The notes under the pieces: generated by a model | What the model was told of the DNA's origin: nothing | The model's database searches: none | Seen by the model: only the letters and a program-made list of their open reading frames with translations | In this document: positions 2,694 through 64,000 of the stretch, one piece after another | How positions within the stretch are numbered: position 1 is the stretch's first letter | Layout of the letters: each line of letters begins with the position of its first letter | NCBI GenBank assembly: GCA_027604185.1 | Contig: JADGKB010000034.1 | Location: 1-64,000 of the forward strand | Length of the DNA: 64,000 nucleotides | Direction of reading: 5' to 3' | DNA from: Boothiomyces macroporosus | Taxonomy: Eukaryota; Chytridiomycota; Chytridiomycetes; Rhizophydiales; Terramycetaceae | Made by a program: the position numbers and the translations under genes

Positions 2694-3514
2694 CTATGGC
2701 AACTCAATGAATCCACCGCCAATTTCAACGACTCTTCCTTCAACATACACATTCTCTTCTTCAACTATAATGTTGACCACACATTTGCGATGTACTAGGT
2801 GTCCTTGCTCCAACTGGTATACACCATACATCTTTTTACTCTGCAACAGTCTCCCCAAACAAGCACATGCACTCCCGGTACCTATATCAAATACGAATTA
2901 CCTGGATCTTCTACTATTTGATGTCCCTCGTCGAAAAAGAATCTTGAAGTGATTTTGGATCCATCAAGTACATACATTAGTATCTGATTGACTCCCATGC
3001 GTTTCATTTCTGAAATGTTGGATACCGCTTTAAACAGGGTATCTCTGCTATCCACTTTGGCCATCAATTGTCTTATTCCAGAGTGCACCCAAATTGTTTC
3101 CAACAGCTTGATTCCTACACCAGATTCAACATTTCTAGTTTCTGGTTCAAATGTTGCCGGATTAGCTCGAAATTTGAAATAGTCATTACGGTGACTAATT
3201 GGAATGATACCAGCTTTGGTTTCAATTTGATCGCACTTTCCAAACAGCTTATGAATAATGAATGAGCTTCCCAATGTAGGATGTCCTGCGAATGGTAATT
3301 CAACCGATGTGGTAAATATGCGCACCTTTTTAGTGTCGGAATCTGTTTCCAAGATGAACAAAGTCTCGGAAAGGTTAAATTGTCGAGCTAGTTTCTGCAT
3401 CAACTCTTCCGGAGTAGGAGAAACAAACACGCATAGCTGGTTTCCTTGAAGCAAGTCTTTTTCTTCAGGGCAGAAAACATTCACTAGTCGGTACTCTAAT
3501 TTCATGAGATTCAA
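2694..3514 (-). CDS. PhzF-family epimerase/isomerase
   Basis: Two exons (3514-2902 and 2881-2694) around a 20-nt intron at 2882-2901 give about 266 residues, the usual PhzF length. The N-terminal part carries PhzF features: an early FCP.. segment, LPFAGHPTLG near residue 70 and EDPGTGSACACLG across the splice junction, equivalent to the EDPVTGSA motif. PhzF proteins have two similar diaminopimelate-epimerase-like lobes and isomerise small metabolites; eukaryotic members mostly have unknown substrates. The start is the first ATG of the frame, with a second Met three codons later. Divergent from the phosphoglucomutase, sharing a 256-bp promoter region that holds a tandem repeat. Confidence 0.85.
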
Positions 3515-3521
3515 AGACTAT

Positions 3522-3599
3522 GAACTGCGGAATGACAAAAAATCACCTGATTTCGAAATGCGGAATTACAAAGTCACCTGATTTCGAACTGCGGATTCC
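3522..3599. repeat. imperfect 31-33 bp tandem repeat in a bidirectional promoter
   Basis: Two near-complete units (3522-3554, 3555-3585) and a partial third (3586-3599). Each begins GAACTGCGG/GAAATGCGG and the complete units end TCACCTGATTTC. The array lies just upstream of the PhzF-like start and about 170 bp upstream of PGM2, so the repeated motifs could be factor-binding sites. That role is inference. Confidence 0.7.
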
Positions 3600-3770
3600 A
3601 ACTCTAGAGTCATTGTCGAGGATCTTTGGTGGGACATTGCGGGTCTAAATCTCGCCGAGAATACTAATAATCATATGCCCATTTTAATTTCCCATTCACA
3701 TCAACCCACTGAGCCGAAACATATGAGTAATTATTGCATGAAAAAATCTTGCAAAATAAAAAATAATCTC

Positions 3771-5549
3771 ATGGCCGACATTGACGCACTAGTTCAAGAA
3801 TATTTATCTCTCGATCAAAACCCAGCTACAAATCAGGAAATCAAGGGTCTATTTGAAAAAAAGGACTTTGCCACTCTCAAGGCCTTGTTGACCAACAGAT
3901 TAGAGTTTGGAACTGCAGGATTGCGGGCAGAGATGGGTTCAGGGTACTCAAGAATGAATGAATTGACTGTAATTCAAGCAACCCAGGGACTGTATGCTCA
4001 TTTACATTCTACTGTTCCAAATTTAAAAGACAAAGGTGTGGTCGTGGGACATGATCACAGGTTCAATTCCGATTCATTCGCGAAACTAACTGCCGCAGTA
4101 TTCCTATCAAAGGATGTCAAAGTCTATTATCTAAAAGGACTAGTACATACTCCACTTGTTCCATTCACTGTGACAACCACAGGGGCTGCGTGTGGTATCA
4201 TGATTACCGCCAGCCATAATCCAAAGCAAGACAATGGATACAAGGTGTACGCTGCCAACGGATGTCAAATAATTGCACCAACAGATAAGCAAGTTGCGCA
4301 AAAGATTCTCGAGAATTTGAAACCATGGACTTGGGATTACGACTTGGTAAACACCAGCAAGTTGGTCGTCGAAAAAACTGAAGAGTTCAAAGAAAAGTAC
4401 TTTGCAAGACTGGCTGAAATCCGACACTTCCCAACTAAATCAAAAAATGTAAAGTTTCTCTACACGGCTATGCATGGAGTTGGATTGGAATTTGCTAAAA
4501 AGTCTTTTAAAGCCTTCAATCTACCTGAATTTGAATTGTGCCAAGAGCAAGGTATGTTCTCTTTAATTTAGTGTTGCCTGATCCAGATTTTCCTACGGTA
4601 AAGTTCCCAAACCCTGAAGAAAAAGGTGCTTTGGATTTGGCAATAAAGAGTGCTGACAAAGTAGGAGCACAAATTATACTTGCCAACGATCCAGATGCGG
4701 ACAGATTAGCGATTGCTGAAAAGGTAGGAGACAAGTGGCACGTATTCACTGGCAATCAAATTGGTGTTATTTTGGCCAGTTTTATTCTTGAATCATTCAA
4801 GGAAAAAGGCCAAACTGCAAATCTAGGTGTGTTGACTACCACTGTCTCTAGTCATATGCTGGAAGAACTAGCAAAGATGAATGGAATGAGGTTTGAAGAA
4901 ACGCTTACTGGATTCAAGTGGCTAGGCAATAAAGCAATTGAAATGGAAAAAGAAGGAACCAAAGCAATATTTGCATATGAAGAAGCGATTGGTACGATTT
5001 GTTAATGTAGGCTTCATGTGCTATGATATTGTAAAGGACAAGGATGGAGTATCTGCCTTGGGAGTCTTTTCTGAATGGGCAAATCATTTGTATGGCAAAG
5101 GCCAAACTGTATATGATCATTTACAGAACTTGTACCAAAAGTATGGATACTGGGTTTCTCAAAACTCTTATTTCATTTGCCATGATAAGCCAACAATCAA
5201 CAAAATTTTTGATAAAATCCGATATGCCCCAAATTCAACAAACTTGGACTATCCAAATGAAATTGGAGGATTTAAAGTGGTCTATGTCAGAGATTTGACT
5301 ATTGGGTACGATAATCTAGCTCCAAACAACAAACCAGCTCTGCCTGTCTCAAGTTCATCTCAAATGGTCACATTCAAACTGGAAAACGATTGTCTTATTA
5401 CTCTCCGCACCAGCGGTACTGAACCAAAGATAAAGTACTATACCGAATACAAAGGTAGGGATGCTGAGTCTGGTAAAACCGAACTAGCAAAAATTGTGCA
5501 ATCCATGATTGACAATCTACTAGAACCTCAATTAAACAACCTTCAATAA
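3771..5549 (+). CDS. PGM2: phosphoglucomutase/phosphopentomutase, PGM2-like
   Basis: Three exons (3771-4551, 4572-4991, 5011-5549) split by 20- and 19-nt introns encode about 579 residues, right for PGM2-type alpha-D-phosphohexomutases. Key sites are visible: the phosphoserine loop TASHNPKQDNGYK (about residue 145), the metal loop DPDADR (about 300) and the phosphate-binding RTSGTEPK near the C-terminus. It interconverts glucose-1-P/glucose-6-P or ribose-1-P/ribose-5-P in the cytosol; the purine nucleoside phosphorylase at 58815 would supply ribose-1-P. The start is set at MADIDALV because the upstream in-frame ATGs add unconserved sequence. It ends 11 bp before the convergent 7TM gene stop. 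Confidence 0.95.
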
Positions 5550-5560
5550 AAAATTCCACT

Positions 5561-7285
5561 CTATTTATTTATAATCTTGAATTCATATCCTTTCTGTGGT
5601 CTGTAGTATACCTCTTTTGCACCCTGCCCACTGTACTGCATATCAATCAAATTTTCAAAAGCAGTGGAACTGGCACTGCGCTTCATACTGGAAGAAGTAG
5701 AATCAACTATAGGACTGGTATTCATCTGGAGTTTATCACTAGAATCGACGCGTTTCAAAATCTTGTTTTCCAAATGGATTGCTGGTGGTAAATCATCAAC
5801 AGTATTGTTTTTCAAGACACTGTCGGAATGGTAATGAGTTGGGCTTCCATTTGTAGTCGAACCAAAGTTGTTTTTACCCACCAATTTCAAAGTTTCAATA
5901 ATTCGTAGTGTAAAGATAGAGTGAAGGAGTAAACAAGTTGTAGTGTAAGCAACAATATTGATTTCTACGAGATCGCTGCCAAAAATACCAGTGTACCAGT
6001 CCAATACTTTAAGGACATAGTACATACCAAACACCAATACTTGGCCGCCAATTAAATAAACTAGTGCTGGATCAATTTCATTTAGGAGATATAGCACTCT
6101 AACAATTGAAGTTTCTTTAGATCCAAACTTTACCATTGTGAAAGCAAAATACATTGGCCAAAAGCAGTTCCAAATAAGCATGAAAAAAGTCCTACGGTTT
6201 AATCAAAAGTACCAGTAAACGCCCAATGAATGCCAAGTGGTAAATGAGGAGATATACGTCTGTGTGGTTTGGAAATATCCTCCGCCATTTAAATAGTAGA
6301 TGGTGTAGCTTCCACCGTTCAAACCAATATGAAGCAATATAATTGCACCGTACACAAATGCGCGGACCAGATAAGAAAACTCGAACAATACAGAGAAAAT
6401 CAAAGTGTTTGTGAGGAATGTGCTGGTAAGTGTCCCGATTCCATAACTGATTGCCAAAAATTCTGAAAAGACGGCCATGGATTCAGTTGATTTGAAATAA
6501 TACACCCAAAAGATGTAGGATAATATTCCCCAGAACAAGTAGAATAATTGGCAAGTGATTGTTAAAAAGTGCACAAAGAGAAAGCCTAGTTTGGATCTGA
6601 CAATCTTGTACAGTGCCTGTGAAAGCTTGATGAATTGGAATACAATCCCCAAAGAAATTGAAATTGCAGCCAGAAAATCATCTGGCTTGTTGAATTGTGG
6701 AATCAATAACGCGTTTGGGATTGATGCAACCCAGCTGAATTGAACATTACCCGTAATAGCACCAAATTGAGCAGTAACTGGTCCAAGGAATTGCGAATTG
6801 AAAGTTTGAGAAATCAAGGAGAGCTGAAACTCGTCAAACTTTCCAGAGCACTGTTTCTTTTCATATTGTCGAAAGGTACCATTTTGAAAGCACTCGAATA
6901 ATCCATCTATGCAATCTGATTGAGGAGTCAATAAAATCCGTTGTTGTCTTTGGGTAGAAGTAACTGAGCAATATTGATGTTTTGTTGCACTTTCAGGAAT
7001 CAGACTAGATAGATCACCATCCAATTGTGAGTTGCTTACAAACGTTGCACCACTACCAAATGGATTGGTCCACTGTGGAATCAATGACGAGTAGCAGCAG
7101 TTACCACCAAGCATATAGTTTCCACAGCTGCTTAGTGGAACCAACGCTGTTGTAAAGTTGTAGAATACAGAGTACATGTTTTCATTGAATACATAGATAA
7201 CTGGTGGTGCCCCAGAACAGTCATTCGTATAGTATTGAGACTGGACGATGATTGCTGATACTGCTGGAAATAACATTAAATTCAA
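5561..7285 (-). CDS. orphan secretory-pathway multi-pass membrane protein (7TM receptor-like)
   Basis: Two exons (7285-6213 and 6191-5561; 21-nt intron 6192-6212) encode about 567 residues. A short N-terminal hydrophobic segment (likely signal peptide) precedes a roughly 190-residue Cys- and Asn-rich ectodomain with paired Cys (SSCGNY, GNCCYS). About seven hydrophobic segments follow (residues roughly 205-455), then a 110-residue Ser/Thr-rich polar tail. The layout of a large ectodomain, seven helices and a cytosolic tail resembles a GPCR, but I recognise no family motif. It differs from the tandem receptors at 20.9-25.3 kb. Function unknown. Confidence 0.8.
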
Positions 7286-7568: not shown

Positions 7569-8459
7569 ATGCCAATCATGGAAGTAAACGGAAATCGGTT
7601 CAATTACGAACTGAAAATAGTTTCGCCTTCATCGCCACTGCTAGTATTTCATCATGGCGGCGGTCACTCTCTACATTCATTTACTCTGCTAGTAGACAAG
7701 CTAAATTACAACACGCTCACTTTTGATTGCCGCCAACATGGACAAACAGAAACCACGAATGATGCAGATTTATCGCTTGAAACATTAACCGATGATCTAG
7801 TGTCTCTAATTCAAAAGTTAGAGTACAAGGAACTGGTTTTAATAGGACACAGTATTTAAAGTTGACATAGGTATGGGTGCACCAGTGGTAATATCCGCAG
7901 TACCACGATTGAAAAAAGTAGTTGGTGTGATTGTGTTGGATGTTGTTGAAGGCACTGCGATTGAAAGCTTGGGAATGATGATGAGTATTCTTATGCGAAG
8001 ACCAAAGAGTTTCAAAAGTGAACAAGATGCAATCGAATGGAGTTTTAAAAACGGAGGAAAGAATCTGGAAAGTTTAAAGATTTCGGTTCCAGGACAGTTG
8101 CGTAAAGTGAACGAAAAGTATTATTGGAGAACGGACCTTGAATCTTCAAAAGTATATTGGCAAGGTAAGTTGGAAATCGTTATTTTTAGTCCAGATTAAT
8201 TGCAGGTTGGTTTGAAAATATGAGTGAAAAGTTTTTGGCGTGTAAATGTGCGAAATTGCTGGTATTGGCTGGTGCGGATAGATTGGACAAGCCATTGATG
8301 ATTGGCCAAATGCAAGGAAAGTTTCAATTGATCATTATTCCGGAAAGCGGGCATTTGATACAGGAAGATGTGCCAGAAAAGTTGGCGGTGATTATCGATG
8401 AATTCTACAAGCGAAATCAACCATTGGATATCTCGAAAATTAGAAAACCGCTCCATTAA
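7569..8459 (+). CDS. PPME1: protein phosphatase methylesterase 1 (PP2A demethylase)
   Basis: Exons 7569-7851, 7871-8164 and 8206-8459, joined across a 19-nt and a 41-nt intron, encode about 276 residues of an alpha/beta hydrolase. Diagnostic pieces are the oxyanion motif HHGGGHS (about residue 28), the nucleophile elbow GHSMG split by intron 1, and LAGADRLDKPLMIGQMQGKFQ followed by SGHLIQED with the catalytic His, closely matching PPME1. The enzyme removes the C-terminal methyl ester of PP2A catalytic subunits. An upstream in-frame ATG at 7416 would add 51 unconserved residues and begins inside a repeat, so 7569 is preferred. The 41-nt intron is anomalous in this genome. Confidence 0.92.
8165..8205 (+). 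other. 41-nt intron of PPME1, possibly nested (intron within intron)
   Basis: The reading frame and PPME1 homology require all 41 nt to be removed. It contains an internal GT at 8169 and AG at 8188-8189. Removing 8169-8189 (21 nt) leaves a 20-nt sequence with GTAA at the front, ATTAAT and a terminal GCAG, which matches the normal introns of this window. The inner piece has a poorer branch motif. A plain 41-nt intron is equally possible. Confidence 0.5.
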
Positions 8460-8512: not shown

Positions 8513-10122
8513 ATGCTTGTTATTTTAGCTACAGGCAACTTTCCAATAGATAAACAGCTCTGCAAACCAAAGCCGCTTTTGCAGTATGGTAATTGGGAAC
8601 TAACAAGGCGGAAAATCCCTCGTTTCCCGGTTATTTGGAATAGACGAGAATACCATACTGTTCACTGATCAACAGAATTACCATCACTATGAGCATTTTG
8701 AAAACGTCAAATGTACAGGATTAGTAACAGAATACCATGTTAGAGACAGTTTGAGGACTGTCATGGGATTATTATTTCGGTTGTTGGAACCCAAAGGAGA
8801 GAGTCAAAGACACTACTTTAATCCTATCGTATTGAAGCCGGATGAAACCATTACAGTTGTGACTGCAGACATGCTTCCAATTGCAGAGCTTAAAGAAAAC
8901 TGGACAGACGACTATTGCAGTTTTGCTTACTTGAAAACACCATGCAACTACCCAATATTTCAATTCAATTCCAAAGCGGTTCCAAAAGTAAGGTCGTGGA
9001 TAGAAAATGGGAGAAATTATTTCGATTTGCTCTATTCATTCAAAGAAAAAAACAGCTTTGAAATCTGTGGAAAGGTGAATGACTGGCTTCAGGATTATTT
9101 GAATTTGAAGGATTTCGATTGGTTTCCTACCCTTTACTCTCCGCAACTGGTTGAAGAGAGGGTTTATGCCCGAGTTGGCTTGATTGGAAACCCTTCTGGT
9201 ACTTTACACTAACACAGATGGATTCAACGGGAAATGCATATCAGCAACAATCAAAAACTATTACGCAACAGTAAAGCTAGAGTCGAGCCCTGACTCTACC
9301 ATAAAGCTGTTGTGCGATGAAGATTTGCCAAGTATTTCTGCAGCAAATCACTCTTTGCGGACGAACGGCTACTATGGCACCAACCGCTTGTTTTTAGCTA
9401 CATTGAAACAGTTTACGGATTACACTAATGAAAATGATACTGCATTGCCTGAAAAAGGGTTCAGATTATCTGTCAAAACCAATATTCCTAAACAAGTTGG
9501 ATTAGCGGGGAGTTCAGCAATAGTAATTGGGATTTTAAAGTGCTTGGTAAAGTATTACAATGTAACTATACCTCCTGAAATTCTATCTACTGTTGCATTA
9601 AACGTTGAGCTGGTAGAACTAGGTATTCAAGCTGGGTACCAAGATAGGGTTGTACAGAGCTATGGAGGCACGGTTTACATGGATTTCACAAATACATCCA
9701 AAGGATACGGCATATACGAAAAGATGAACGTTAAACTACCCAGGATGTGGTTGGCATACAATCCTAAACCCAAGGAAAGCGGCCAGGTACATAACAATGT
9801 AAAACAACGATACCTAGAAGGAGATTTCCAAGTTACAAATGTAATGAAACAACTTGGCCAACTAACAGATGAGTTTTACACTGCCTTGAAAACAAAAAGT
9901 GATATCACAAAGATGATAAAAAAGAATTTTGAACTACGAAAGAGTATTTATAGTATCAGCCCGGATATGCAAGAAATGATTTCTATTGCTGAAAAGTACG
10001 GAAATTGCGCAAAGTTTAGCGGGAGCGGTGGTTGCTGTATTGGAATTGGTGGCAATGAAGAAGAGTTGCAGAAAGAGATGGAGCAAAGAGGTTTTGTCTT
10101 TACTGTTATTGAATTTGAATAA
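8513..10122 (+). CDS. bifunctional nucleotidyltransferase-like / glucuronokinase (GHMP kinase) fusion
   Basis: Three exons (8513-8588, 8608-9198, 9218-10122; two 19-nt introns) encode about 523 residues. Residues 1-200 form a sugar-nucleotidyltransferase-like domain (ILATG start, KPKPLLQYGGKSL as the substrate-binding start), here quite short. From about 205 the sequence reads ARVGLIGNPSDGFNGKTIS-like, the N-terminal signature of glucuronokinase, followed by the GHMP ATP loop GLAGSSAIVIG (about 315), GIQAGYQDR (about 360) and C-terminal FSGSGG. It would phosphorylate glucuronic acid to glucuronate-1-P and perhaps couple this to UDP-glucuronate formation (salvage). The start is the ATG 53 bp after the methylesterase stop; an upstream GTG extension is unlikely. 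Confidence 0.85.
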
Positions 10123-11913: not shown

Positions 11914-13050
11914 TTAAGGATGTAAAGCCCGCGAAAAACCAATTTGACTGTGTTGCTTATCATAGACGGTGTAATAAGCTCTTGTCAAAACATCACCAAA
12001 AATGTTGAAGCTTCCAGCACCTCTGTCAATTCCTGAAGCACAATTACCGCCGCCAAGATCAATGACATAGATATTACTAGGAATAGAAAGAGTAAAATTT
12101 GGGAATTTGAATTCAATATTAGGTCCAGATGTTGCTTTTGAACAGGCAATTGGATAATATCCACCCGAAGAATCATAAGGACTTGCACCAATACCTTGGT
12201 TTATAGCATCAGCTACAGGCGCATAGAGGATAATCAAAGTGGTGCCAGTATCTGAAATCGCGTTTCTAACTACATTACCAACACAGCCAACTTTAGTTCC
12301 CGCTTTAAAAGTAACTTTACTGACATCAAACTGCCAATAGGTTTTGGAAATCACAGGAACCCATTGTAAAGTACCTTTGAATCTCGTGCTATCTATTCCT
12401 CCAATAGTGATTTCGCCATAGTCTCCATTAGCAGCATTTGATAAATAAAAAGAGAATTTCTGGTAGCTTGGGCTGAATCCTAGAGCGTCAAAGTAATTCG
12501 CATTCTTCCCAGTGGTGCTTGAAATTTCAGAAAGAGAGTTGTAAGCTAAACCAACCAAACCTGAATTTCCAACAAACCCACTTTCATAGGTTGATACTCC
12601 GATTGGAATTGTGGCAGCTGCTCCACCTATATTTACTTTGGTGGTATAGATATTTGCAGATAATTGGCCGCTGCCATAAGTTACTTGGAATGACTTGCCC
12701 AAAGGCTTTATGGTTGTATCACTCAAGTTTACTCTTGCCCCAGAACATGAGCCATCAGTACTAGAACATGCTGGACCACGAACCCAAGTATCAGCAGAGC
12801 CAGTCTATGTTAACAACAATCTTACATCCAAGTCAAGCAAGAATGACTGCCCGTTCCCAACAGATACATACACCTGATAAAAGTAATTTCCAATATTTTT
12901 TAGGTTCACATTCGTTTTCGTGCTGGAAAATCGAGCAAGCGCGCTAGCACCAGATGCAATTGGGTTGTTGTTTCTCTTGGAGATCCTTAATGTAAACGTA
13001 TGGTTCTTTTTGGCGGATACAAAGAGCAACAAGAGAAAATACAAGATCAT
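11914..13050 (-). CDS. secreted pepsin-like aspartic protease (A1), active-site intact
   Basis: Two exons (13050-12826, 12804-11914) around a 21-nt intron encode 371 residues. MILYFLLLLFVSA is a clear signal peptide, followed by a pro-segment-like basic stretch. The intron falls inside the first catalytic motif and splicing creates LDLDTGSADTWV. The second motif is ISDTGTTLI, so both Asp are present. Two Cys pairs typical of pepsins are visible (ACSSTDGSC and the pair around YPIAC...GGNCASG). Likely a secreted or vacuolar endopeptidase. The 94-bp divergent spacer to MESH1 must contain both promoters. Confidence 0.92.
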
Positions 13051-13143: not shown

Positions 13144-13690
13144 ATGGATTTGGAGAAATTACTGGACAGCATTGCGTTTGCGGCAGAGAAACACAAGAAC
13201 CAACGACGAAAGAATAGCGAAGCGACTCCGTACATCAACCACCCAATCGGAGTGTAAGCAATTTTAATATAGTGCCCAAATTCTGATCAAGGAAAAGATT
13301 GATGACATTGATATCCTCAGAGCGGCGATTTTACATGATACGGTCGAAGATACTGACACTACGTTTGAAGAATTATCAGAGATTTTTGGTCCGACTGTAA
13401 CTGATTACGTGAGAGAAGTAACCGATGACAAGACCAAGCCAAAACATGTCAGAAAACAACTTCAAGTTGATACCGGTGCTCATAAATCGTATGGGGCCAA
13501 GCTAATCAAAATGGCTGACAAGATATACAACTTGCGGGACCTTGAAAAAGAAACCCCAGTTGGGTGGGATCAAGAACGACGTGATCAGTACTTTATCTGG
13601 GCGAAAAAAGTTACTGATAACCTCAAGGTTCATGATGGATTGCAGCGGCAATTGCAAGAACTATATGCGCGTAACCTAACAGCAAAATAA
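13144..13690 (+). CDS. MESH1: metazoan SpoT homologue-type (p)ppGpp/NADPH hydrolase
   Basis: Exons 13144-13253 and 13273-13690 (19-nt intron) encode 175 residues, close to human MESH1/HDDC3 (179). HD-domain metal motifs are visible: HKNQRRKN...PYINHPIGV at the N-terminus, AAILHDTVEDTDTT (HD, about residue 56) and KMADKIYNLRD. Family enzymes hydrolyse ppGpp and, in animals, NADPH phosphate; no RelA-type synthetase domain is present here. Cytosolic by lack of a leader. Convergent with the first ceramidase across an unusually long 620-bp spacer. Confidence 0.93.
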
Positions 13691-17538: not shown

Positions 17539-19137
17539 ATGGACACTTCTCCTGTAACAGATAAAGAGATATTTGGATGGCAGTCGTATGGATTCGCTTC
17601 GGAAGCTTTTGCAGCCCTAGGCAAGCATACTTTAATCTAGGTTTGGCAGTGTTTTTCCCTATAGTATTGCAACAAATGGCTGCTCACTCGGCCTACGACA
17701 TTAATCACAACCCATGCAACACTACGGCTTCCTACAAGTGTTCAATAGACGTATTTTGGTTCAGCGTTGATACTTCCTCGGCAGTATTTTTTGCTTCTTC
17801 AATATCTGTTCTAATTCAGTTTGTATTGTTTGTATGTCTCGGATCAATAGCAGATTACGGGGAATACAGAAAGCTATTCATGATGGGATTCGGATACCTT
17901 TCGGCAGCGGTTGGATTGGGAATGTTGTTGATCGTGGATTCAACAATGTTCAAAACTGCAATTCTCATATACATCTTGGGAAGCGTATTTCACGGAGCTT
18001 CATATGTGTTTTTCTATAGCTATGTTCCAATACTAACTCGATATCACCCTAAAGTAATAGAAAAAAAGAATACTGCAGAATACTATAAAGTGATGGATAA
18101 AGTAGGAAATGACATTAGCAGCGCCGGATTCATGTATGCGTATTTTGCATCTGTCTTTGAACTAGTAGTTGCCTCAATTATTGTTTTTGTGCTGGGAAAC
18201 GGAGAAGACTACGGATTACCAGATGTATATCCTCTGCAAATTGGAATCGCTTTTGCTTGCATCTGGCAGATTGTAGTAATGATAAAATATACAGAGCCAA
18301 ATATCAAAGCAAGACCAGGACCACCACTGCCTCCAGGAGAGAATTTTATCGTGTATTCAATCAAGAATCTCCAAATCACTTTATCTAAAGCAAAGCAACT
18401 AAAGGAGCTCTTTACTTTTCTGCTGGGATGGTTTATATTTAGCGACGGAATCAGTACAGTTTCGACTGTAGCGATTTTATATTGCCAGTCTGAATTGGGA
18501 GTATCTGAAATAGGACTGCTAATAGCAGCAATACTTACTCCTTTCGCTGCAGGAATAGGAAATTTTACGTGGATTAAAATACAAGCAAAGTACAAGCTCA
18601 CTACGCAGCAAACACTAGTCATTCAATGCATCATGCACTGCTTGTTGCCAGTCTGGGGATTGATTGGATTCTTTACTCCAAAAGGTACTTTTTATTAAAC
18701 CAGGCTCTTTTGGATTACAGGCAAAGTGGGAGATTTATGTCCTGGCTTGCTACTATGGGTTTCTGCTTGGTGCTTCACAATCTTCTTGCAGAGTAATGTT
18801 TTCAGACCTGCTACCTCATGGCCAAGAAGCAGAATTCTTTTCACTGTATGAAATTACCGACCGCGGGAGTAGCTGGATCGGACCTCTAGTTGTAGGGGCG
18901 ATTGGCGATGCTGGAGATAAGCGATACTCTTTTGTCTTTTTATTATTTATGCTAATGATACCAGTCTATGTATTTAGCAAAGTAGACACGGTAAAAGGAA
19001 AGAGGGACGCTCTCCAATTCGCTTCAAAGGAAGAAGAAATGATTGCTTTGAGAACAACGATTCAGTCAGAGCCTCAGGAAGAAGATTTGGAGCGGTTGAT
19101 AGGCGGGGACGCGAATCCTGAGTTTATCAGGCCATAA
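17539..19137 (+). CDS. ATG22: Atg22-like vacuolar/MFS transporter
   Basis: Exons 17539-17620, 17641-18684 and 18704-19137 encode about 519 residues with roughly 12 membrane segments. Opening WQSYGFASEAFAAL and later FYSYVPIL, LPHGQEAEFFSLYEITDRGSSWIGPL are typical of the Atg22 (PF11700) branch of the major facilitator superfamily. Yeast Atg22 exports amino acids from the vacuole after autophagy. The first intron (17621-17640) is 20 nt and begins with GC, not GT. The C-terminal tail is acidic. Divergent from ceramidase copy 2, with starts 132 bp apart. Confidence 0.9.
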
Positions 19138-19278: not shown

Positions 19279-20706
19279 ATGGCTTCAAGAGATACAGACA
19301 AGGAAGTACTAGAGTATTAATAAAGCTAATAATAGCTTTTTAGAGTCGCTGGATTCACTCGATATTAAAGGCACAAAGGAACAGAAACCAGCAACTCCAC
19401 CAGTAACTCAAAAACCATTCGCACCTTCTCAGAAACCTTTTGTTCCCAGCACAAATGGTTTTGTTCCATTCCAACCAAGCACTCCTCCATCAATATCTAG
19501 ATCGCAGTCCCCAAACAGTCCAGCACTTGGCAAACCACCAACTACTTCTGGATTCACTCCATTTCGACCACCTGTCCCTAATCAGCAAGCACCGCCTACT
19601 AAACCTGTATATCCTCCTGTTTCGCAAGCTGGACAAAACATTCCGCCACCATCTGTTCAACAACCAGTTGCAAATCAACCACCAGTTCAGAATTTCCCTC
19701 CAACACAACAAAATCAGCAGCCGCCAAATTCAAATCAAGCTCCTCCTATTGCAGGACCTCCGCCTCAAATTAAACCACCAGTAGAAGGATACCACCAACA
19801 CAAACCCCCTCCAAAAAGAACTGGTTTTGTTCCATCATTCCACCAACAGGCAGGACCATTGCCACCTCCAATCGAACCGCAACCTGTGCAAGAGCAAAAT
19901 TCACAAGAAGGAGGATGGTCGTGGAACAGCGTGTGGTCCACTGCATCCAAAGGATTGGAAAGTGCAAAAGCAATAGCTGGAACAGTAACAAAAGACCTTG
20001 CAAGCAGTGAAACTGTCAAGGGAATTTATCAAACAGTAACCCCTGAACTTCAAAACCTTGGTAATATATATTTTATATAGCCCAAATTGCCACCAAAGGA
20101 GTAACTACTCTGGCAGATACACTCGCTCCGCCTATTACTCCTACTGGACAGTCTTCCAAAATTCCTGGTACAATCAACATTTGGATGTGTGTGTCAGTCA
20201 CCGATCAAGAATTAAAGAACAGATTGCACATTATTGCTAACCAATCAAGTCACGAAATTTGGTTGTCCAAAAGACCACCATATCTTGGTCGTCAACCAGT
20301 GTGTGACCAAGTAAAAGTCAATTTGGTGGATGACAGTGAGCCAATAGTTCCAAATAATCTTCAAAACGCAATTTCAATGGCAGAGGTACATTTTAAACTA
20401 ATGTAGAACACAATGGAAAGATTGCAGAAACTAGCAGATGCAGAGAACGATGGATTTAGACAAGCTCTTCTTGTTGTGCAACCTTTCCAGACGGTTGTAG
20501 AATCAATGATATCTGATGCAAAAACGCACTTGTCATATTACTGTGTGCTAGTTTGCGATGCTCAGCAGGGTCTATTAACCGCAAATACCATCTCGCAGTC
20601 TGTTTTTGAAAACCACGCCAAGCCAGAATGGTTCAATGAGCAATGCTTTCGCGTTTTAGAAACCGCTGTGGTTGATATACTGGAAGAGTTTATGCTGAAT
20701 GTTTAA
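19279..20706 (+). CDS. MTC1: MTC1-family protein (maintenance of telomere capping 1 / COPI-associated)
   Basis: Exons 19279-19313, 19336-20060, 20081-20385 and 20407-20706 (introns 22, 20, 21 nt) encode about 454 residues. It starts with the family motif KEVLDFLESLDSL, followed by about 180 residues of Pro/Gln-rich linker with a repeated KPF.P/GF.PF motif, then GGWSWNSVWSTASKGLESAKA and a folded C-terminal domain (VTDQELKNRLHIIANQSS onwards), the order found in fungal Mtc1 (DUF5427). The family is largely fungal and in yeast is linked to COPI vesicles. The first exon is only 35 nt. Confidence 0.85.
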
Positions 20707-20878
20707 TAAGTGTGTTTAATCCATGAATAAAACTGTATTCATGAATATTTCACGGTTTTTGCGATTAGATAACATTGAATAGCTGTTTATTTCAGCTATC
20801 GATAAATTGCTTCAGTACCAAATATAGCTTACGCAACTCAGGTTCCTTCATTAATTAAAAGAAGGTTCACGTCATCTC

Positions 20879-46203: not shown

Positions 46204-47178
46204 ATGACCAAAGAGCATGGGCAGTCAACGTATTTAACTCTTAATCCATAGCTTGACTAAAAAATTGATCAGCGGAGCTATAGCTGGTGTGATTGGTACT
46301 TGCATGTAGGCTATTTCTAACGTAGAATATTTCCTCTTGATATTATCAAGACCAGGCTGCAAAATTCATCTTCCCAGTACCGGGGAATGTAATATTTGTT
46401 AATGTAGGTTGGACGTGGCAACAAAGATGTTCAAAGCGGAAGGGATTGCTGGGTTTTACCAAGGACTGATCCCAAATCTCACTGGTATTTTGTTTTTTAT
46501 AAAGGAATTATTCCTGAAAAGGCCATTAAACTAGCAGTTAATGACTACGCAAGGGAATACTGGGGCAGAAGGTTGAATATACATCCTGACGAATTACCAT
46601 TATCCTATGGAATGTTATCAGGAGCTACAGCAGGATTCTGCCAAGTTATAGCTACCAACCCAATGGAAATTGTAAAGATTCAACTACAGCTAGCGGGACT
46701 ACAAGGGAATTCTCTCTCTGCGTCAAACGTCGTAAAGGAAATGGGGATAAAAGGACTGTATAGGGGCACTACTGCTACATTAGCCAGAGATGTGCCCTTT
46801 TCTATTGTATTTTTTTCACTTGTATCTTTATTTAAGCAGCTTGGAACTCCAAAAGATCAGCCCACACCTTTCTCTACTATTTTTGCCAGTGGGATTAGTG
46901 CTGGAGCAATAGCGTCTGCATTGGTTACCCCTATGGATGTAGTCAAGACTAGACTGCAAGTTATGCAAAAGGAAGGTATTGTGGTTTACAAAGGCCAATT
47001 AGACTGCTACAAGTAATTATAGCTGACGTAGATCTATTATTGCCAAAGAAGGTCCGCAAGCATTATTTAACGGGTGTCTTCCAAGAGTATTAATTGTATC
47101 TGTAATTTTTGTCTAATCTAGCCATTATTCGCAATCACTGTGATGGTGTATGAATTCCAGCAAAGACTATTCGCTTGA
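46204..47178 (+). CDS. mitochondrial carrier (SLC25), glutamate/aspartate-carrier-like
   Basis: Seven exons with introns at 46230-46251, 46306-46325, 46389-46407, 46485-46504, 47013-47031 and 47102-47121 encode about 284 residues, standard for SLC25. Three tripartite repeats are seen with signatures FPLDIIKTRLQ, NPMEIVKIQLQ and TPMDVVKTRLQ, each followed by the Gly-rich second half (GFYQGLIPNLTG, GLYRGTTATLARD, LFNGCLPRV). The matrix-loop wording and the PEKAIKLAVNDYAR segment resemble glutamate carriers (SLC25A22/Agc type). Inner mitochondrial membrane. The first exon is 26 nt. Confidence 0.9.
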
Positions 47179-53392: not shown

Positions 53393-53430
53393 TGTAATTT
53401 TTCCATTTTTTCGGTATATATATTCGATTA
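53377..53430 (-). promoter_or_regulatory. possible promoter and overlapping upstream ORF of the hydrogenase gene
   Basis: A 9-codon upstream ORF (ATG at 53406, stop at 53377-53379) overlaps the hydrogenase start codon (53392) in another frame. An AT-rich TATA-like run lies at about 53415-53424. If transcription starts about 25-30 bp after that run, the upstream ATG would not be in the mRNA, so a regulatory role is only a possibility. Confidence 0.3.
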
Positions 53431-53485
53431 ATAATTATGAGTCACAATGTCTGAAAATGACGGACAATTCGATTTATTCAACTTT

Positions 53486-54357
53486 CTATTTTGGTCCTGG
53501 GTAATCAAACAGAACTCTTAATCTCGTTACGAGTTCAAGGAACCCTTCCTCGTCATTCAAAAACCCTTTCCGAACCATAAAGTCAATCATTACCAAAGCC
53601 GCTTCCGGTTTAAACTTTTCTTTTAAAATCAATTCCTTAATTTCAGGTATTTCAAGTAATCGGAACGAATCTACTTCATCATCTTGTTGTTTTGGGACGA
53701 AATCGTTAGGTAATTGTAAATCAAACACATAGTTTGTTGCTGGTTCGCTTTCATATTCATCCAATCGCCAGAATGATATGCAACTGGTTTGGACCATGTC
53801 TTTGCACAATTCCTTTGATATTCCCGCCTCTGAATTAACGCGATTTACCTTCCCAGGCTTCTTTTACCATGCATTCTAATGGAGTATAACCGACTGTTAG
53901 TCTATATTAGATAATTGTACCCTCCAGCAGCAAGGTTGTCCAAATACCCTGGAAACGTTTGTTTGTTCAATGACCGCTTTCCAATCCACACTTTAACTTG
54001 ATCATTATCCAATATATATCCATTCATGTGACATCCATAACCCCGAATTCCCAACAGTGTGTTTGCTGATCGTTCAATTTCAAATAAAATAGAATCGGAG
54101 CCATAAACGTTGTATCTTTCATTTCGCCATCCTTTCAGGCATTTAAATAAACCCTTCGCCTTCCATTCCAGCAACATTTTTTCAATCGTTTCGGTACAGT
54201 TCGTTAATAAGATAATTTCATTTTGTTCCACTTGGAAAAAGGATGGCAGATGCGGTACCATTTTCGGCTGGATATGACCAATGGTTTCCGACTTGTATTT
54301 CAACGGAATGGGGTTGAATTGTTGGTAATTGCTATACTTTTTGACCAACTTCAACAT
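53486..54357 (-). CDS. DUF4743-Nudix hydrolase (Tnr3/YJR142W/NUDT20-like)
   Basis: Three exons (54357-53921, 53901-53849, 53829-53486; two 19-nt introns) encode about 277 residues. An N-terminal DUF4743-like domain (GWRNERYNVYG, FEIERSANTLLGIRGYGCHMNGY) precedes the Nudix part: VWIGKRSLNKQTFPGYLDNLAAGG, then the box core KEAWEEAGI formed by exon joining, then YVFDLQLPNDFVPKQQDDEV. The family includes the fungal thiamine-linked Tnr3 C-terminal domain and plant NUDT20/24; some act on oxidised thiamine diphosphates. No thiamine pyrophosphokinase domain is fused here. Divergent from the next gene with only 21 bp between starts. Confidence 0.9.
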
Positions 54358-57316: not shown

Positions 57317-58015
57317 TTAAACCATTTCTGCAAATCTATCCCCAAATCTTTTGAGTGCACTGTACACTTTGATCTGCATTTCGTTCACAGGACAATCGTG
57401 GATATCGTTCCGCAACTCCCATTCATCAGCATCACACTCTACATCGTCATCATAATCAAAATATTCCATCATATACTGGACTTTTTTGAGTATCTCCTGG
57501 ATATCCTTCTTTTTCCTTTTCGAAGCTTCTAAGTAAGGTATTCAATTACTTGCAGTTTCCTTCTTTTCTTCCTTTTCCTCTTCATTCTCTTTAAGCGACT
57601 CTTGCTTTTCAGGAGACTCTCGTTCTTTTTCCTCCTCTTTATCGCTGGTCCTTCTTCTCCTCTTCTTTTCTATGGTTGGCTCTTCTAGCATCGCATCAAA
57701 GTCAGAGATCCTTGAATTCATTGTATTCCTTCTTCCTCCTTCTCTTTTTTTGGTAACAAACAGGCTAGGTGAGTAACAGATACAGATAATATGGATGCCC
57801 TTCTGGTTTACATTCCTCACAATAATAATTTCTACATTAACAAATTGGTACTTTGGTAATTTCTTTCCCAAGTTTACACATTCGCAATGTTGCCAAACAG
57901 AACAGGTTTCACACTGGATCATTGTCCCAATAGATTCTGATATAAGTTTGGTATTACCGCTTGTGCCGCATACACAGCGAGTAACTTCATCATCGCTATC
58001 GTCTTTCCTCTTCAT
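57317..58015 (-). CDS. PHD-finger chromatin protein
   Basis: Four exons (58015-57852, 57831-57784, 57764-57550, 57528-57317; introns 20, 19, 21 nt) encode about 212 residues. The PHD finger is complete only after splicing: RCVCG, MIQCETCSVWQHCECVNLG, then YYCEECKPEGHPYY, the type that reads methylated histone H3 (Cti6/BYE1-like). A long Lys/Glu-rich charged region follows (about 110-160), then a C-terminal part with DYDDDVECDADEWELRNDIHDCP. Nuclear; likely part of a histone-modifying complex. Confidence 0.85.
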
Positions 58016-58814: not shown

Positions 58815-59825
58815 ATGACCACTCCAAACAATTTACCAGTATCTACAAGCAATTACTTTGATATAACTACATATCAAGAAACCGCCACATTCTTGATCGA
58901 CAAGCTTCCTTCTCATCTAAAGACAATCAAGCTTGGTGTCGTTTGTGGATCTGGATTGGGTGGATTAGTAGAATGCTTTGATGGCGAAACCGTTTCTTTT
59001 GATTACAAGGATATCCCTCACTTTCCTGTATCAACTGGTACCTTGTACTAATCTCAGTTCATGGCCATGCCGGAAAGTTTGTTTTTGGTATGATTGGAAA
59101 CACTCCAACCGTATGTATGCTTGGAAGAATGCACTTGTATGAAGGACACCCTCCAATTAGAACCGCATTTCCTATCAGGATTATGCGCCAGTTGGGTGCG
59201 CAGAATTTGATTGTTACAAATGCAGGTACTCTTAATTAATATTAGCTGGTGGATTGAACAAGGATTTCAAAGTTGGCGATTTCATGATCATTAGAGATCA
59301 TGTTTCTTTTGCTGGAATGGCTGGTCAAAATGCGTTGATTGGTCATAATATCGAACAGTTAGGTCCAAGGTTTCCACCTGTATCGGATGCCTACGATTTC
59401 GACTTGAGAGTAATCGCAGCTCAAGTTGGATTTGATTTAGGATTAGAATCAACTCTTCGTGAAGGTATTTACACTTTTGTTGGTAATTTTTATTTAATTT
59501 AGCTGGACCTAGTTTTGAAACCAGGGCAGAGGCAAGATTCCTTCGCGATGCTCTACATGGCGATTGCGTAGGAATGTCTACAGTGCCAGAAGTTGTTGTT
59601 GCCAAACACTGCGGTTTAAAAGTCTTGGGGCTGTCTTTGATTACCAACAAAGTCTCTGTTGGATATGGAAGATCCGCTTTGGAACACGTTCGCAACAAGG
59701 GAGGTAGCAGTGCAATGGCAGACGATGAATTGAACCTCGCCAGTCATGAAGAGGTGTTGGAAACCAGCAAAGTTAGATCGATAGTGTTTACTGACTACGT
59801 AAGGAAAATCATAAAATCTCTTTAA
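58815..59825 (+). CDS. PNP: purine nucleoside phosphorylase
   Basis: Four exons (58815-59037, 59058-59225, 59246-59482, 59503-59825; three 20-nt introns) encode about 316 residues of the trimeric PNP family. Visible motifs: GVVCGSGLGGL (phosphate Ser), VHGHAGKF, GRMHLYEGHP (phosphate Arg/His), TNAAGGLN, GPSFETRAEARFLR (base-binding Glu/Phe), GMSTVPEVVVAKHCG and ITNK (Asn for the purine). It splits inosine/guanosine to base and ribose-1-P in purine salvage. N-terminal start by Met before the family's usual short lead. Confidence 0.95.
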
Positions 59826-60079
59826 TATAATCCCCATCGTTACTAGTAACACCACCCATATATTACTCATCTAAGCGATTATATCCGAGCAGTAGGGTGT
59901 GATTCATACCGCAACAGACCTTTGCAGAAATCAGCACCACCCAAACACAGTGGTGGATCAGGACCCAAATATAAAAGAAGAATTTCCTTCTAGCACAGCA
60001 GAACCTCAAAATTCCTAATTCTAATTGTAAATTTCTTTATTTAGATTTTCCATTGTATAAATTGACTTTTTCACCAACA

Positions 60080-62837
60080 ATGAGTGATAAGACGACACTG
60101 CAGAAATTAGCTATGAACAGAGACAACACTGACAGATCTGAAGATATGATCGCCAGCAACATAGAGTCATTTGTACAGGGAGATGGTATTTGTTATTAAT
60201 GAAGAAAAGGAGTCTAAGAATGTAAATACGGTGCTCACAGCAATTGCGAGCAAATCCAATTTTGATTATCCATCAAATGATTCGCTAGTGGCATTAGCAG
60301 AAGATAAAGTAAATTACAAAGTGCAGATAAAGGAACATCAGCGAAAGACGTCGTTTTTGAAGGACTCGAAACAGCCTAGTCAGCAGCCAATTTCTAAAGC
60401 TACAACCTTACCTATTAATAGACCTATGAGTGCCTATAGCCACGCTAAGCCAGCCAGCCATCAAAAAATGGAGAGCACGGGCACTACAAACGATAATTCA
60501 CAAAGTAACCTTCTGGAAAAACAAGGGAATTCCTTAGATAAATCAACCAACATTATCGAAAAGCAAGCGAAATCGCCAGTGTCTGCTCCTAGTACTCCAA
60601 CAAAGCCAGCATTAAGCCCAACTTCAGGAAAACCGGCAAGTCCCAATCCTCGGGATGACAAGGGCAAAAATAAATCGCTGGAATTGAAATCACTAGGTAT
60701 ATTGTATTTTAATTAGACACTTCTCATGCTTTGACAGCCCAAGAGCTAGAGTACTGGGAGGAATCAAAAACCGCAGGTGTAGGACCAGGACTATCTTCAC
60801 CTCTTCCTCCAACAGATGACAAGAGTAATTTTTTATTAACCCAAAGAAATCGCAGATACAGTAAACTACTATCACCAAGTAAAACTCTACTCTGTAAAGG
60901 TTTTGCACTGCTGCGAACAGTTAAAGTCTGTACGACAGGATGGCAGGATAACCTTATTGCAAGAATTCGTATCTCACTTCAGACTAGTTAGGGATTGCTT
61001 GCGAAAATTTATCGATTTAATGGTCGGGTCTACTAGTATCGCTGATCTGAAAAGAAACGGAGTCGACTTGTTGAAATATGAAATATTAATGACTACAGAA
61101 TTTTTGTTGGGCAATGGATCAAGCCCAAATGCGATTGAATTTAAAAGATTGGTAAGCTACGTTTAATTCAGTTTGAGCAATTGAATACTAATATTGATAC
61201 TGTAATGCGAAAATATCAACCAGCCAGCAAAGTAAATCTTTCTTAACGTGTAGACTATGGTAAAGCAATGTGCAGGGTTCAAAGAAGAATCATGTTACGA
61301 TGGTCCATTCTTTATCGCCGATGAAGTTTCTTATGTGGACATGCAATTGGAACATATGCCCGATGTGCATTATTACAGAAGACACTTTGTTAATCAAGGT
61401 AATTCATGGGTAATCCAGAACACACTACTTTTGTTGGGCATCTTGAAAAATATGGGCCTGTCATCATTTCGCTAAAGAAGGAAGACCCAATCGACAAATC
61501 GTTCGAAAATAAGGATGGGTCATATAGAGTTATCTTCAGATCCAAGGACCATCCTGACAGAAGAGAACTACTACCAGGCTCTCATATCAAAAAGTCGTTT
61601 TTGGGTCGCAAACACTCTACCAAGCAGGTGTTACAATTACTGCACAAGGATATAAATTTATCTAAATTGAAGCAAGTAGAAAAAGATCACAATATTGAAA
61701 ACAAGATTTTGAAGCTAGACGAGCTTAAAGTACGTTGTTTTTAATTCTAGTATCGTGACAAATACAAATTTGGTGTGCTCTTGGTGAAGCCAGGCCAAAC
61801 TACAGACAACGAATACTTTAGCAATGGTACTTGACAAATAACTGTAGTGTCTGGAAGCCCTGCTTATGAGAAATTCCTGACTTGTCTGGGGGATAAGGTA
61901 GAGTTATTGAATTTCAAAGGGTTTGCCGGTGGTTTGGATACTACCCACGGGAGAACTGGCAAGTACTCTATCTACAACGCTTGGAAAGATTACGAAATTA
62001 TGTATCACTGCTCTACTTATTTGCCTTACAGCGAAGAAGACTCGCAGCAAATTGAAAGGAAGAGACATTTAGGAAATGGTACTTTTCTTCTTATGTAGAT
62101 ATTATTAATATTGTATATTTAGATGGGGATGTTCAATTTGACCCAAAAAGTATAAAAACACAATTTACACACATATATATATTAGTTAAGCACGAAATCG
62201 TAGTAGTTAATGGCCAAAGTATTGACGGTTACAGAGTAGCAATGACAAGCAGCGTTGACGTTCCAAAGTTCGGTCCTCCTCTTCCAAACCCACCAGTTTT
62301 CGATTCATATATTCGTCTAAACCAGTTCCTTATGGCTAAATGTAACCATTTTCTAATCTAGTAATTAATGGAGAAAACGCCGCTTTGAAAGCTCCAAAGT
62401 TCTCCAAACCAAATGAACGCGCACATCATGCAATGTTTGATGATATTGTGGAAGAGTTTTTGCAGCCAGCTAGGGTTCCAAGCAGTAAATCTGATCGCAA
62501 AAAAGTTGCCAAATCAATGATTCTTTCCCCATCAGACAAGGAAACGCCAATGCAGATGCACAAGATATTTACACAAGGATTGAAGCAACGCCAATCTTTC
62601 CATGGAAGTGCTCCAGAAGTCAATACGCCAATTACTGCTCACTCTCCATTTAATGTGCAAAATTATCCACCACCTCCAGGGCCATTACAAAAACCAAGAT
62701 CGGACACTCCATCCAAAGATTCGTTAAATTCGCTAACAAAGCAAGAGCAAGTAATGGAGACTATGGCTGATAGCAGCCCATTAGACTTGAGAAGTTCCCA
62801 CTCCAAATCAGAACCTATGCTGACAAAAGGAAAATAG
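60080..62837 (+). CDS. Rap-type GTPase-activating protein (RapGAP domain)
   Basis: Eleven exons, with introns at 60186-60204, 60697-60716, 60825-60846, 61152-61171, 61232-61253, 61399-61418, 61730-61750, 61827-61847, 62079-62098 and 62342-62361, encode about 850 residues. The RapGAP core is seen across exons: GPVIISLKKE, FGVLLVKPGQTTDNEYFSN, FLTCLGDKVELLNFKGFAGGLD, YEIMYHCSTYLPY, and ERKRHLGNDIINIV containing the catalytic Asn (formed at a splice junction). The first 200 residues are a Ser/Pro/Lys-rich disordered region and the last 170 a Pro/Ser-rich tail. It stimulates GTP hydrolysis by Rap/Rheb-like GTPases. The most intron-dense gene here. Confidence 0.9.
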
Positions 62838-62871
62838 TTTAAATAAATACAAGTTTTAGAAAAGGATTTAT

Positions 62872-64000
62872 TTAGTCATGCCATTCTGCTCCAGTTGTTA
62901 GAGCAATAAAGGCATACATGTCGGCTTTCTTTTCGAGAACCATAGAAATTGGCTGGCCAGCGCCGTGTCCAGCTTTGATTTCTAAATTAATAAAAGTTAC
63001 CAATGCGTCCCAAAACAATTTTACCCTTCTTGTGTTGCATTTCGGCAATTAGCTTCAAAGAATGTAAAGGAACAACCCTATCATCATGGTCTCCGGTCAA
63101 AATCATGATTGGTGGGTTCTTGCCTGTTACATTGTGCAGTGGTGAGAAATTCCTCACTACTTCAAAATCTTCTTTGACGTCTGGATCACCATAGTCGGAT
63201 TTCCAGGCATACCCGATGGTGAATTTGTGGAATCTGTACAAGTCCATCACACCTACTTCAGCAACTGCACATCCAAACAGTTCAGGGGCTTGGTTTACGC
63301 ACGCACCGATAAGTAACCCGCCGTTACTTCCACCATTAATAGTAATAAGATTGTGAGAGGTGTATTTTTCTTTTACCAGGTATTTAGCAGCATACTGGAA
63401 ATCGTCAAATACATTCTGCTTGTTCTTTAATCTTCCTTGGTTGTGCCAGCCTAAACCAAACTCACCACCACCGCGCAAGTTAGCAATGCAGTAAATTCCA
63501 TCAAAGTGTTGTACGAATGAAAGAATAGTTGTAGAAAATGAGGGTAAAATAGGAACTCCAAATCCACCATACCCATACAAGACTGCTGGATTTGCAGAGT
63601 TTAGTTCAATATCTTTCTTGTGGATAATGTACATTGGAATCAATGTACCATCTTTTGAAGGATAAAAGACTTGAGTGGTTGTTAAATTATTTAAATCAAA
63701 CTTGACCTTTTGCTGAATGATGGAGTGTGAAGTGTTGAAATCGTATTTGAAAATTTCTCCAGGAATCGTGAATGAAGAAATTTTGTAAAAGAAGTAGTCA
63801 TCCTTTTCCTTTCCGTCTAGTTCAACAACCATCGCTCCAGTTGGTAATTCGATATTCTTGATAAACTGCCCATTAAGATCATAGATTTCCATGACGTGTT
63901 GGACATTTTCCAATCTGACAGTGACAAACAAATTATTGACCGGTAAAACACTTTCTAAAACGCTAGTCTTTTCCGGAATAATAGTTTTGAATCCTTCTTC
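62872..64000 (-). CDS. prolyl oligopeptidase (S9A), C-terminal part
   Basis: Exons 64000-63001 (running off the window) and 62981-62872, joined across a 19-nt intron, give the C-terminal 369 residues. The catalytic triad is visible: GGSNGGLLIG (Ser), DHDDRVVP (Asp) and KAGHGAGQP (His, in the last exon). YGYGGFGVPILPSF and NLRGGGEFGLGWH are typical of the family. Cytosolic serine peptidase that cleaves after proline in peptides shorter than about 30 residues, so it could also process or degrade short peptides. The beta-propeller and the start lie beyond 64000. Confidence 0.95.

Follow-up and report, generated by a model that had tools for sequence, protein, structure and literature searches.

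Probable U2-type introns of 19 to 22 nucleotides in a chytrid fungus of the Terramyces/Boothiomyces group

How can introns of only 19 to 22 nucleotides (nt) be recognized, and held to so narrow a range of lengths, in a fungal genome? The question is raised by the stretch of DNA analyzed here, hereafter the window, which comprises bases 1 to 64000 of contig 34 (126 kb) in a genome of 15.2 Mb and 216 contigs. Our analysis indicates that the segments are very probably U2-type introns, reduced almost to the smallest size at which a normal spliceosome can seat the 5′ splice site and the branch helix side by side, in a chytrid of the Terramyces/Boothiomyces group. The RNA polymerase II largest subunit (RPB1) encoded in the window shares 95% identity with its counterpart in Terramyces sp. 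JEL0728 across the 1200 residues compared, the next being Kappamyces at 79%. Terramyces is also the nearest relative of the window Rap-GAP protein, and ISY1, encoded on another contig of the same genome, is 98% identical to its counterpart in Boothiomyces sp. JEL0838. Both genera belong to the Terramycetaceae (Rhizophydiales, Chytridiomycota), relatives from which we assume a free-living lifestyle. An initial annotation of this DNA had placed the short introns in a free-living, fungus-like lineage; the short introns stand, while the lineage is a true fungus, a chytrid, and not merely fungus-like.

Introns of 19 to 22 nt prevail in gene models

Introns were predicted with a Viterbi gene finder written for this analysis and trained on long open frames. 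The modelled region covers 264 kb of the genome, i.e., the window and positions 1 to 200000 of another contig (C1:1-200000). With a uniform length prior of 8 to 300 nt, no motif model, and GT..AG ends as the only requirement, 17 of 35 introns were 19 to 22 nt long, compared with 0 to 3 of 32 to 36 calls when seven decoy dinucleotide pairs were used under the same settings. The best protein alignments described below were likewise obtained with GT-AG ends and not with decoy pairs. A motif model ignoring length placed 112 of 173 calls in this range (25, 54, 22, and 11 calls of 19, 20, 21, and 22 nt, respectively); most of its calls of 31 to 75 nt were rejected, many of them having a full short intron at their start. 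The signal was weak in a cruder test of open frames, which showed only a modest excess at 19 to 21 nt.

The final window models comprise 28 genes, 22 of which carry introns. Under a peaked length prior, 52 of 54 window introns are 19 to 22 nt long, and under a uniform prior over 12 to 100 nt the figure is 39 of 50; the corresponding peaked-prior and uniform-prior values for C1:1-200000 are 207 of 219 and 154 of 199. The modal length is thus narrow and below about 30 nt on the region modelled. Altogether, the peaked-prior models contain 259 introns of 19 to 22 nt in 264 kb, which would amount to roughly 15,000 genome-wide if the sampled density holds. The initial annotation had counted 76 introns in about 30 genes, 74 of them of 19 to 22 nt, and had described them as genome-wide and close to the known minimum for spliceosomal introns. 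Its total was not reproduced, its proportion was similar, its genome-wide claim is supported as far as a second contig, and GT-AG introns of spliceosomal type near the minimum are indeed what the models support. Gene-finder calls of 281, 284, and 124 nt, together with a joined ATPase model, were rejected and do not recur in the later models of the window. Most 21-nt introns contain in-frame stops (62/64), but these were not taken as a sign of selection because the gene finder favors them.

Protein comparisons recover the same junctions

Exact junctions were sought by splice-aware protein alignment, in which GT and AG were the only requirement and neither length nor motif was preferred, the maximum intron allowed being 400 nt for RPB1 and 120 nt for Rap-GAP and ISY1. 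Across all protein comparisons, including those with solved structures and human PRPF8, 27 junctions were supported, 25 of them delimiting introns of 19 to 22 nt and 20 lying inside the window. They are distributed among the genes for RPB1 (4), Rap-GAP (9 of 10), protein phosphatase methylesterase PPME1 (2), purine nucleoside phosphorylase (3), Cu/Zn superoxide dismutase (2), ISY1 (4), and PRP8 (3). Left off this list were one Rap-GAP intron (60697-60716), both phosphoglucomutase introns, for which protein support was weak, and the first intron of ISY1.

For RPB1, introns of 22, 19, 20, and 20 nt were returned with proteins of Terramyces, Batrachochytrium, and Spizellomyces, while the Kappamyces model, which begins further downstream, gave three of these four. 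For Rap-GAP, seven of ten model introns were matched exactly with Terramyces protein P0242. Five relatives (P0243, P0244, P0245, P0246, and P0249) were aligned over a shorter span containing eight introns, and P0243, P0244, P0246, and P0249 each matched seven, of 20, 22, 20, 21, 21, 20, and 20 nt. When four decoy dinucleotide pairs were used for RPB1 and Rap-GAP, lengths were scattered and scores lower for both. Once spliced, the PME-1 methylesterase, purine nucleoside phosphorylase, and Cu/Zn superoxide dismutase aligned with solved structures without gaps at the junctions. Outside the window, the PRP8 introns measure 21, 21, and 22 nt, with a spliced stretch of 422 residues aligned gap-free to human PRPF8, and those of ISY1 measure 20, 19, 46, and 20 nt with proteins of Boothiomyces, Globomyces, and Kappamyces. 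The first ISY1 intron is ambiguous (L040, 1225-1310), as it can be drawn as two 20-nt introns around a 1-nt exon or, following the Boothiomyces protein, as a single intron of 49 nt.

In the protein models of Terramyces and Boothiomyces, the residues that the introns would encode are absent at most junctions compared. Either the annotations of these genomes already splice such introns, or the introns are absent there. Two parts of Rap-GAP that most of the other chytrid proteins compared possess, the exon 61172-61231 and the stretch 62099-62185, are also missing from the public Terramyces model. The second of these holds a motif common to other chytrid proteins and a fish protein, and the Globomyces model lacks part of it. 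Each stretch missing from the Terramyces model starts directly after an ultra-short intron, and both are possibly annotation errors caused by such introns; this model may serve as a warning of how gene prediction can fail. In addition, the metagenome protein P0244 contains seven additional residues precisely where the exons flanking window intron 62079-62098 join, which might correspond to a 21-nt intron left unspliced in a chytrid relative.

The branch point lies at fixed distances from both ends

To describe the anatomy of the short introns, two sets were used. The catalogue, built with a length prior, contains 304 introns of 19 to 22 nt, duplicates included, or 291 after removal of 13 duplicates; the finder required GT-AG ends, while branch motif and spacing were not part of its first pass. 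The length-agnostic set contains 137 introns of up to 60 nt from a finder that used a branch model, and a strict YTRAY, able to pair with U2, is present in 120 of them. Catalogue introns have A at +3 in 93%, G at +5 in 14%, and T or C at −3 in 90% of cases, and in 227 of 304 their best branch motif reads TAAT or TAAC. The GTA donor, TAAY branch-like motif, and AG end of the initial annotation are hence recovered as GTA..., a YTRAY branch, and NAG. The branch A falls at +14, +15, or +16 in 288 of the 304 introns, mostly at +14 or +15, and 5 or 6 nt remain after it in 262. The length-agnostic set gave a similar picture, in which 105 of 120 introns place the branch A between +14 and +16 and 98 of 120 have 5 or 6 nt after it, in line with the earlier suggestion that branch point and 3′ site form almost one element.

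The distances from the 5′ site to the branch and from the branch to the intron end are uncorrelated (r = −0.09, permutation p = 0.37) in the 98 of 120 length-agnostic introns within the core range, which leaves out the other 22. Among these 98, the standard deviation of total length was 0.99, against 1.04 expected under independence. A correlation of −0.60 between the halves in 275 of the 304 catalogue introns was set aside in favor of the length-agnostic value, since it goes together with truncation of the lengths to 19 to 22 nt and with a few early branch assignments.

Longer introns differ upstream of the branch and seem more often to carry G at +5

Two introns beyond the 19- to 22-nt range are supported by protein comparison, one of 41 nt in the window (8165-8205) and one of 46 nt in ISY1. 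In both, a branch motif is kept whose A stands 6 nt before the intron end, and the differences lie upstream. Reading introns of 41 to 46 nt as two nested 20-nt introns was considered and rejected: the 41-nt intron can be split by eye, which was judged likely to be chance given how common GT and AG are.

The usual donor consensus has G at +5, without strictly requiring it. Most short introns depart from this consensus, with +5 G in only 42 of the 291 unique introns of 19 to 22 nt, compared with 5 of 8 calls of 40 to 79 nt (Fisher p = 0.003). For all unique calls shorter than 80 nt outside the 19- to 22-nt range, the count is 7 of 13 (p = 0.0015); taken alone, calls of 23 to 28 nt give 2 of 5 (p = 0.16), and the two protein-supported long introns give p = 0.02. 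These tests replace a first one on hand-picked longer introns (5/6, p = 4e-4), which had omitted two 40- to 79-nt calls without G.

The genome encodes a recognizable splicing machinery

Three splicing RNAs were found with their pairing motifs: U2 small nuclear RNA (snRNA) in two copies with GUAGUA intact, U6 snRNA with ACAGAGA, and U1 snRNA, with the 5′ sequence AUACUUACCUG and an intact pairing motif. All seven splicing proteins searched for were matched, i.e., PRP8, SF1, a U2AF65-like protein, YJU2, ISY1, CWC25, and SLU7, and the gene models of PRP8, SF1, the U2AF65-like protein, ISY1, and CWC25 themselves contain introns of 19 to 22 nt. Among these, YJU2, CWC25, and ISY1 are branching factors and SLU7 acts in the second step of splicing. 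CWC25 keeps its MGGG start and YJU2 its N terminus. An identical stretch of 3288 bases carrying CWC25 is present on two contigs (C49 and C100; L042 and L043), pointing to a recent duplication or a redundant assembly. According to a passage in PMC11651659, SLU7 and PRP18 matter in yeast when the distance from branch to 3′ site is at least 12 nt; SLU7 is kept here although this distance is only 5 to 6 nt.

The initial annotation had proposed inspecting spliceosome homologues for reductions or changes. Each of the seven proteins searched for gave a match, the U2AF65-like one below its curated cut-off, and one possible change emerged as a lead only, since the N terminus of ISY1 looks diverged. Among the 120 relatives listed (of 375), 62 start with M.RN.[EA]KA and 12 more with close variants by manual count. 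The start deviates in Boothiomyces, Kappamyces, and Gorgonomyces, and less strongly in Globomyces, all members of the Rhizophydiales. The other 42 models are without a comparable start, including that of Batrachochytrium, from the same order, which keeps the next conserved residues. With the first ISY1 intron unsettled, a gene-model error behind the divergence is a real possibility.

Near-minimal introns in a normal spliceosome and the alternatives

If the segments are near-minimal introns handled by a normal spliceosome, U2 would pair with the branch motif and U6 with the donor, giving lariat loops of 14 to 15 nt and tails of 5 to 6 nt. Because the two distances are uncorrelated, we read the narrow length as two separate fixed units, each set independently: the branch A would have a sharp floor at about +14, and branch and AG would form a unit of 5 to 6 nt. 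Such fixed spacing might let short introns do without +5 G, which longer introns would more often keep. Several observations weigh against this interpretation. On the side of the machinery, the U1 match scores 68.8 against a gathering score of 69.5, i.e., 0.7 bits below it; the Rfam U5 model gave no match in the genome, nor in the controls; and the U2AF65-like protein reached 230.7 bits in a six-frame search, with an E value of 1.1e-67, against a curated cut-off of 310.3. On the side of the alignments, Globomyces P0245 matches only four of eight Rap-GAP introns, gaps of 114 and 44 nt replacing three short ones; at two places in Rap-GAP the alignment with Terramyces P0242 opens 102 and 107 nt, because this protein is without residues there; and with Spizellomyces P0129 the last ISY1 intron measures 29 nt rather than 20 and a further gap of 54 nt appears. 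Moreover, the branch A was assigned by motif, and of the eight calls of 40 to 79 nt only those of 41 and 46 nt have protein support, a 62-nt call lying at the extreme end of its model and a 42-nt call being apparently miscalled.

The initial annotation had favored a spliceosome that measures total intron length, under which off-range introns would be poorly removed and the 3′ half would shrink as the 5′ half grows. The total length is narrow, the core table holds no intron with a +14 branch followed by 4 nt (18 nt in total), though it does hold one with 3 nt, and the halves appear anticorrelated in the peaked-prior catalogue cut to 19 to 22 nt. Yet the lack of correlation in the length-agnostic set and the protein-supported 41- and 46-nt introns weigh against such a ruler, which we consider improbable. 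It is even harder to believe that the introns of this genome are of ordinary fungal size with a tail of short ones, the majority being longer and missed, so that the 19- to 22-nt class reflects annotation bias. Beyond its first pass the gene finder was adjusted to short introns, and modelling 264 kb with a coding fraction of 0.63 to 0.67 leaves room for missed genes; nevertheless, the peak stays at 19 to 22 nt under uniform length priors, and protein alignments free to open much longer gaps mostly return this length. That the segments are not introns at all, but remain in the mRNA and are bypassed in translation or represent assembly or sequencing errors, is the least credible account of all: the 304 segments share GT-AG ends, a branch motif, and narrow spacing, decoy dinucleotides perform worse, splicing RNAs and proteins are encoded, and the same junctions are required to match proteins of several species.

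A speculative extension of the preferred interpretation, which we hold possible but rather doubtful, is that the spliceosome of this branch of the Rhizophydiales has itself been adjusted. It would accept loops of about 14 to 15 nt, treat branch placement and branch-AG distance as fixed units, and dispense with +5 G; the N terminus of ISY1, which reaches the active site, would have diverged in parallel with that of the ciliate Stentor, while the CWC25 plug, the YJU2 N terminus, and SLU7 were kept.

Features of the window

The genes and introns located in the window are compiled in Table 1. Three further loci were observed. A gene without predicted introns at 51377-53434 (−) encodes [FeFe]-hydrogenase and NADH-dehydrogenase-G-like domains, which is of interest for a chytrid. 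Two neighboring, similar frames of 1028 residues lie at 34460-40866 (−), one of which was tested and identified as a P-type cation ATPase. A tandem of four similar hydrophobic frames occupies 20855-24831 (+), with no Pfam match for the one tested.

Table 1. Genes and introns of the window, with the basis of each call (P numbers denote aligned proteins)
Feature	Position	Strand	Basis
RPB1 gene (RNA polymerase II largest subunit), four ultra-short introns	25391..30892	-	
RPB1 intron, 22 nt	30778..30799	-	Exact with P0001, P0009, P0017; beyond reach of P0002
RPB1 intron, 19 nt	30566..30584	-	Exact with P0001, P0002, P0009, P0017
RPB1 intron, 20 nt	30250..30269	-	Exact, four proteins
RPB1 intron, 20 nt	29837..29856	-	Exact, four proteins
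Rap-GAP gene, ten ultra-short introns	60113..62837	+	
Rap-GAP intron, 19 nt	60186..60204	+	Exact with Terramyces P0242 only
Rap-GAP intron, 20 nt	60697..60716	+	Upstream flank poorly aligned; not counted as supported
Rap-GAP intron, 22 nt	60825..60846	+	Exact with P0242; missed at edge of shorter span
Rap-GAP intron, 20 nt	61152..61171	+	Exact with P0243, P0244, P0245, P0246, P0249; P0242 lacks next exon
Rap-GAP intron, 22 nt	61232..61253	+	Exact, five proteins; P0242 lacks preceding exon
Rap-GAP intron, 20 nt	61399..61418	+	Six proteins
Rap-GAP intron, 21 nt	61730..61750	+	Protein alignments, except P0245
Rap-GAP intron, 21 nt	61827..61847	+	Protein alignments, except P0245
Rap-GAP intron, 20 nt	62079..62098	+	Four of five proteins of shorter span; not with P0242
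Rap-GAP intron, 20 nt	62342..62361	+	Six proteins
Protein phosphatase methylesterase intron, 19 nt	7852..7870	+	Junction gap-free vs PDB 3c5w
Protein phosphatase methylesterase intron, 41 nt (longer exception, GTAAG donor)	8165..8205	+	Gap-free vs PDB 3c5w
Purine nucleoside phosphorylase intron, 20 nt	59038..59057	+	Junction gap-free
Purine nucleoside phosphorylase intron, 20 nt	59226..59245	+	Junction gap-free
Purine nucleoside phosphorylase intron, 20 nt	59483..59502	+	Junction gap-free
Cu/Zn superoxide dismutase intron, 20 nt	31740..31759	-	Junction gap-free
Cu/Zn superoxide dismutase intron, 20 nt	31457..31476	-	Junction gap-free
Phosphoglucomutase intron, 20 nt	4552..4571	+	Gene finder; weak protein support, uncounted
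Phosphoglucomutase intron, 19 nt	4992..5010	+	Gene finder only
Intron, 20 nt	2882..2901	-	Gene finder
Intron, 21 nt	6192..6212	-	Gene finder
Intron, 19 nt	8589..8607	+	Gene finder
Intron, 19 nt	9199..9217	+	Gene finder
Intron, 21 nt	12805..12825	-	Gene finder
Intron, 19 nt	13254..13272	+	Gene finder
Intron, 19 nt	18685..18703	+	Gene finder
Intron, 22 nt	19314..19335	+	Gene finder
Intron, 20 nt	20061..20080	+	Gene finder
Intron, 21 nt	20386..20406	+	Gene finder
Intron, 20 nt	32511..32530	+	Gene finder
Intron, 19 nt	33458..33476	-	Gene finder, model wrongly joining neighbor genes
Intron, 20 nt	34197..34216	-	Gene finder, model wrongly joining neighbor genes
Intron, 20 nt	41385..41404	+	Gene finder
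Intron, 19 nt	41573..41591	+	Gene finder
Intron, 21 nt	41756..41776	+	Gene finder
Gene model overlapping mitochondrial carrier frame, six introns of 19-22 nt	46204..47178	+	Gene finder
Intron, 19 nt	53902..53920	-	Gene finder
Intron, 19 nt	53830..53848	-	Gene finder
Intron, 21 nt	57529..57549	-	Gene finder
Intron, 19 nt	62982..63000	-	Gene finder

Comparison with known ultra-short introns

Very short introns were previously known from ciliates, nucleomorphs, and a few parasites, to which a chytrid fungus can probably be added. Among the matches listed in a search of titles and abstract beginnings in the openly licensed literature, no description of such introns in a chytrid or free-living fungus was found, although one may exist elsewhere; the passages on chytrid genomes in PMC13391722 and PMC5364385 give no intron lengths. 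With 259 short introns in 264 kb and seven of seven splicing proteins matched, the genome suggests that introns of this size do not depend on a drastic reduction of the spliceosome, and it offers a fungal system for asking how near the 5′ site and the branch can lie.

Among the closest parallels is Stentor coeruleus, whose introns, in the relevant parts of PMC9505925, are 15 to 16 nt long, with the branch A at the 10th or 11th position and a tail of about 5 nt. The two systems share genome-wide ultra-short GT-AG introns, a fixed branch A position, a short tail, and the presence of major-spliceosome snRNAs. They differ in that the chytrid introns measure 19 to 22 nt, place the branch A mostly at +14 or +15, and carry a clear YTRAY, whereas Stentor is described there as having no strong branch consensus. 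In the same source, SLU7 and PRP18 are listed as N/A for Stentor and the Gly-rich plug of CWC25 is given as not conserved, whereas SLU7 and the MGGG start are found here; the N terminus of ISY1, also given as not conserved in Stentor, looks diverged in the chytrid too.

In the nucleomorph of Bigelowiella natans, 865 introns of 18 to 21 nt are reported with no obvious 5′ or branch motif, as stated in part of PMC6461891. The length range is nearly the same, and the pairing motifs of U1, U2, and U6 are kept there despite weak donor motifs; unlike the nucleomorph, the present case concerns a chytrid nucleus with GTA and YTRAY motifs and, by extrapolation, the far larger intron number given above. 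Paramecium and Nyctotherus also have ultra-short introns genome-wide, which at about 25 nt are a few nucleotides longer and belong to ciliates, not fungi (passages of PMC5014332). Finally, a 23-nt intron of Trichomonas vaginalis was called comparable only with those of Stentor (15 nt) and B. natans (18 nt) in a passage of a 2025 report (PMC12316389). It resembles the introns described here in being spliceosomal and very short, but stands in an intron-poor genome, whereas in the chytrid such introns are abundant.

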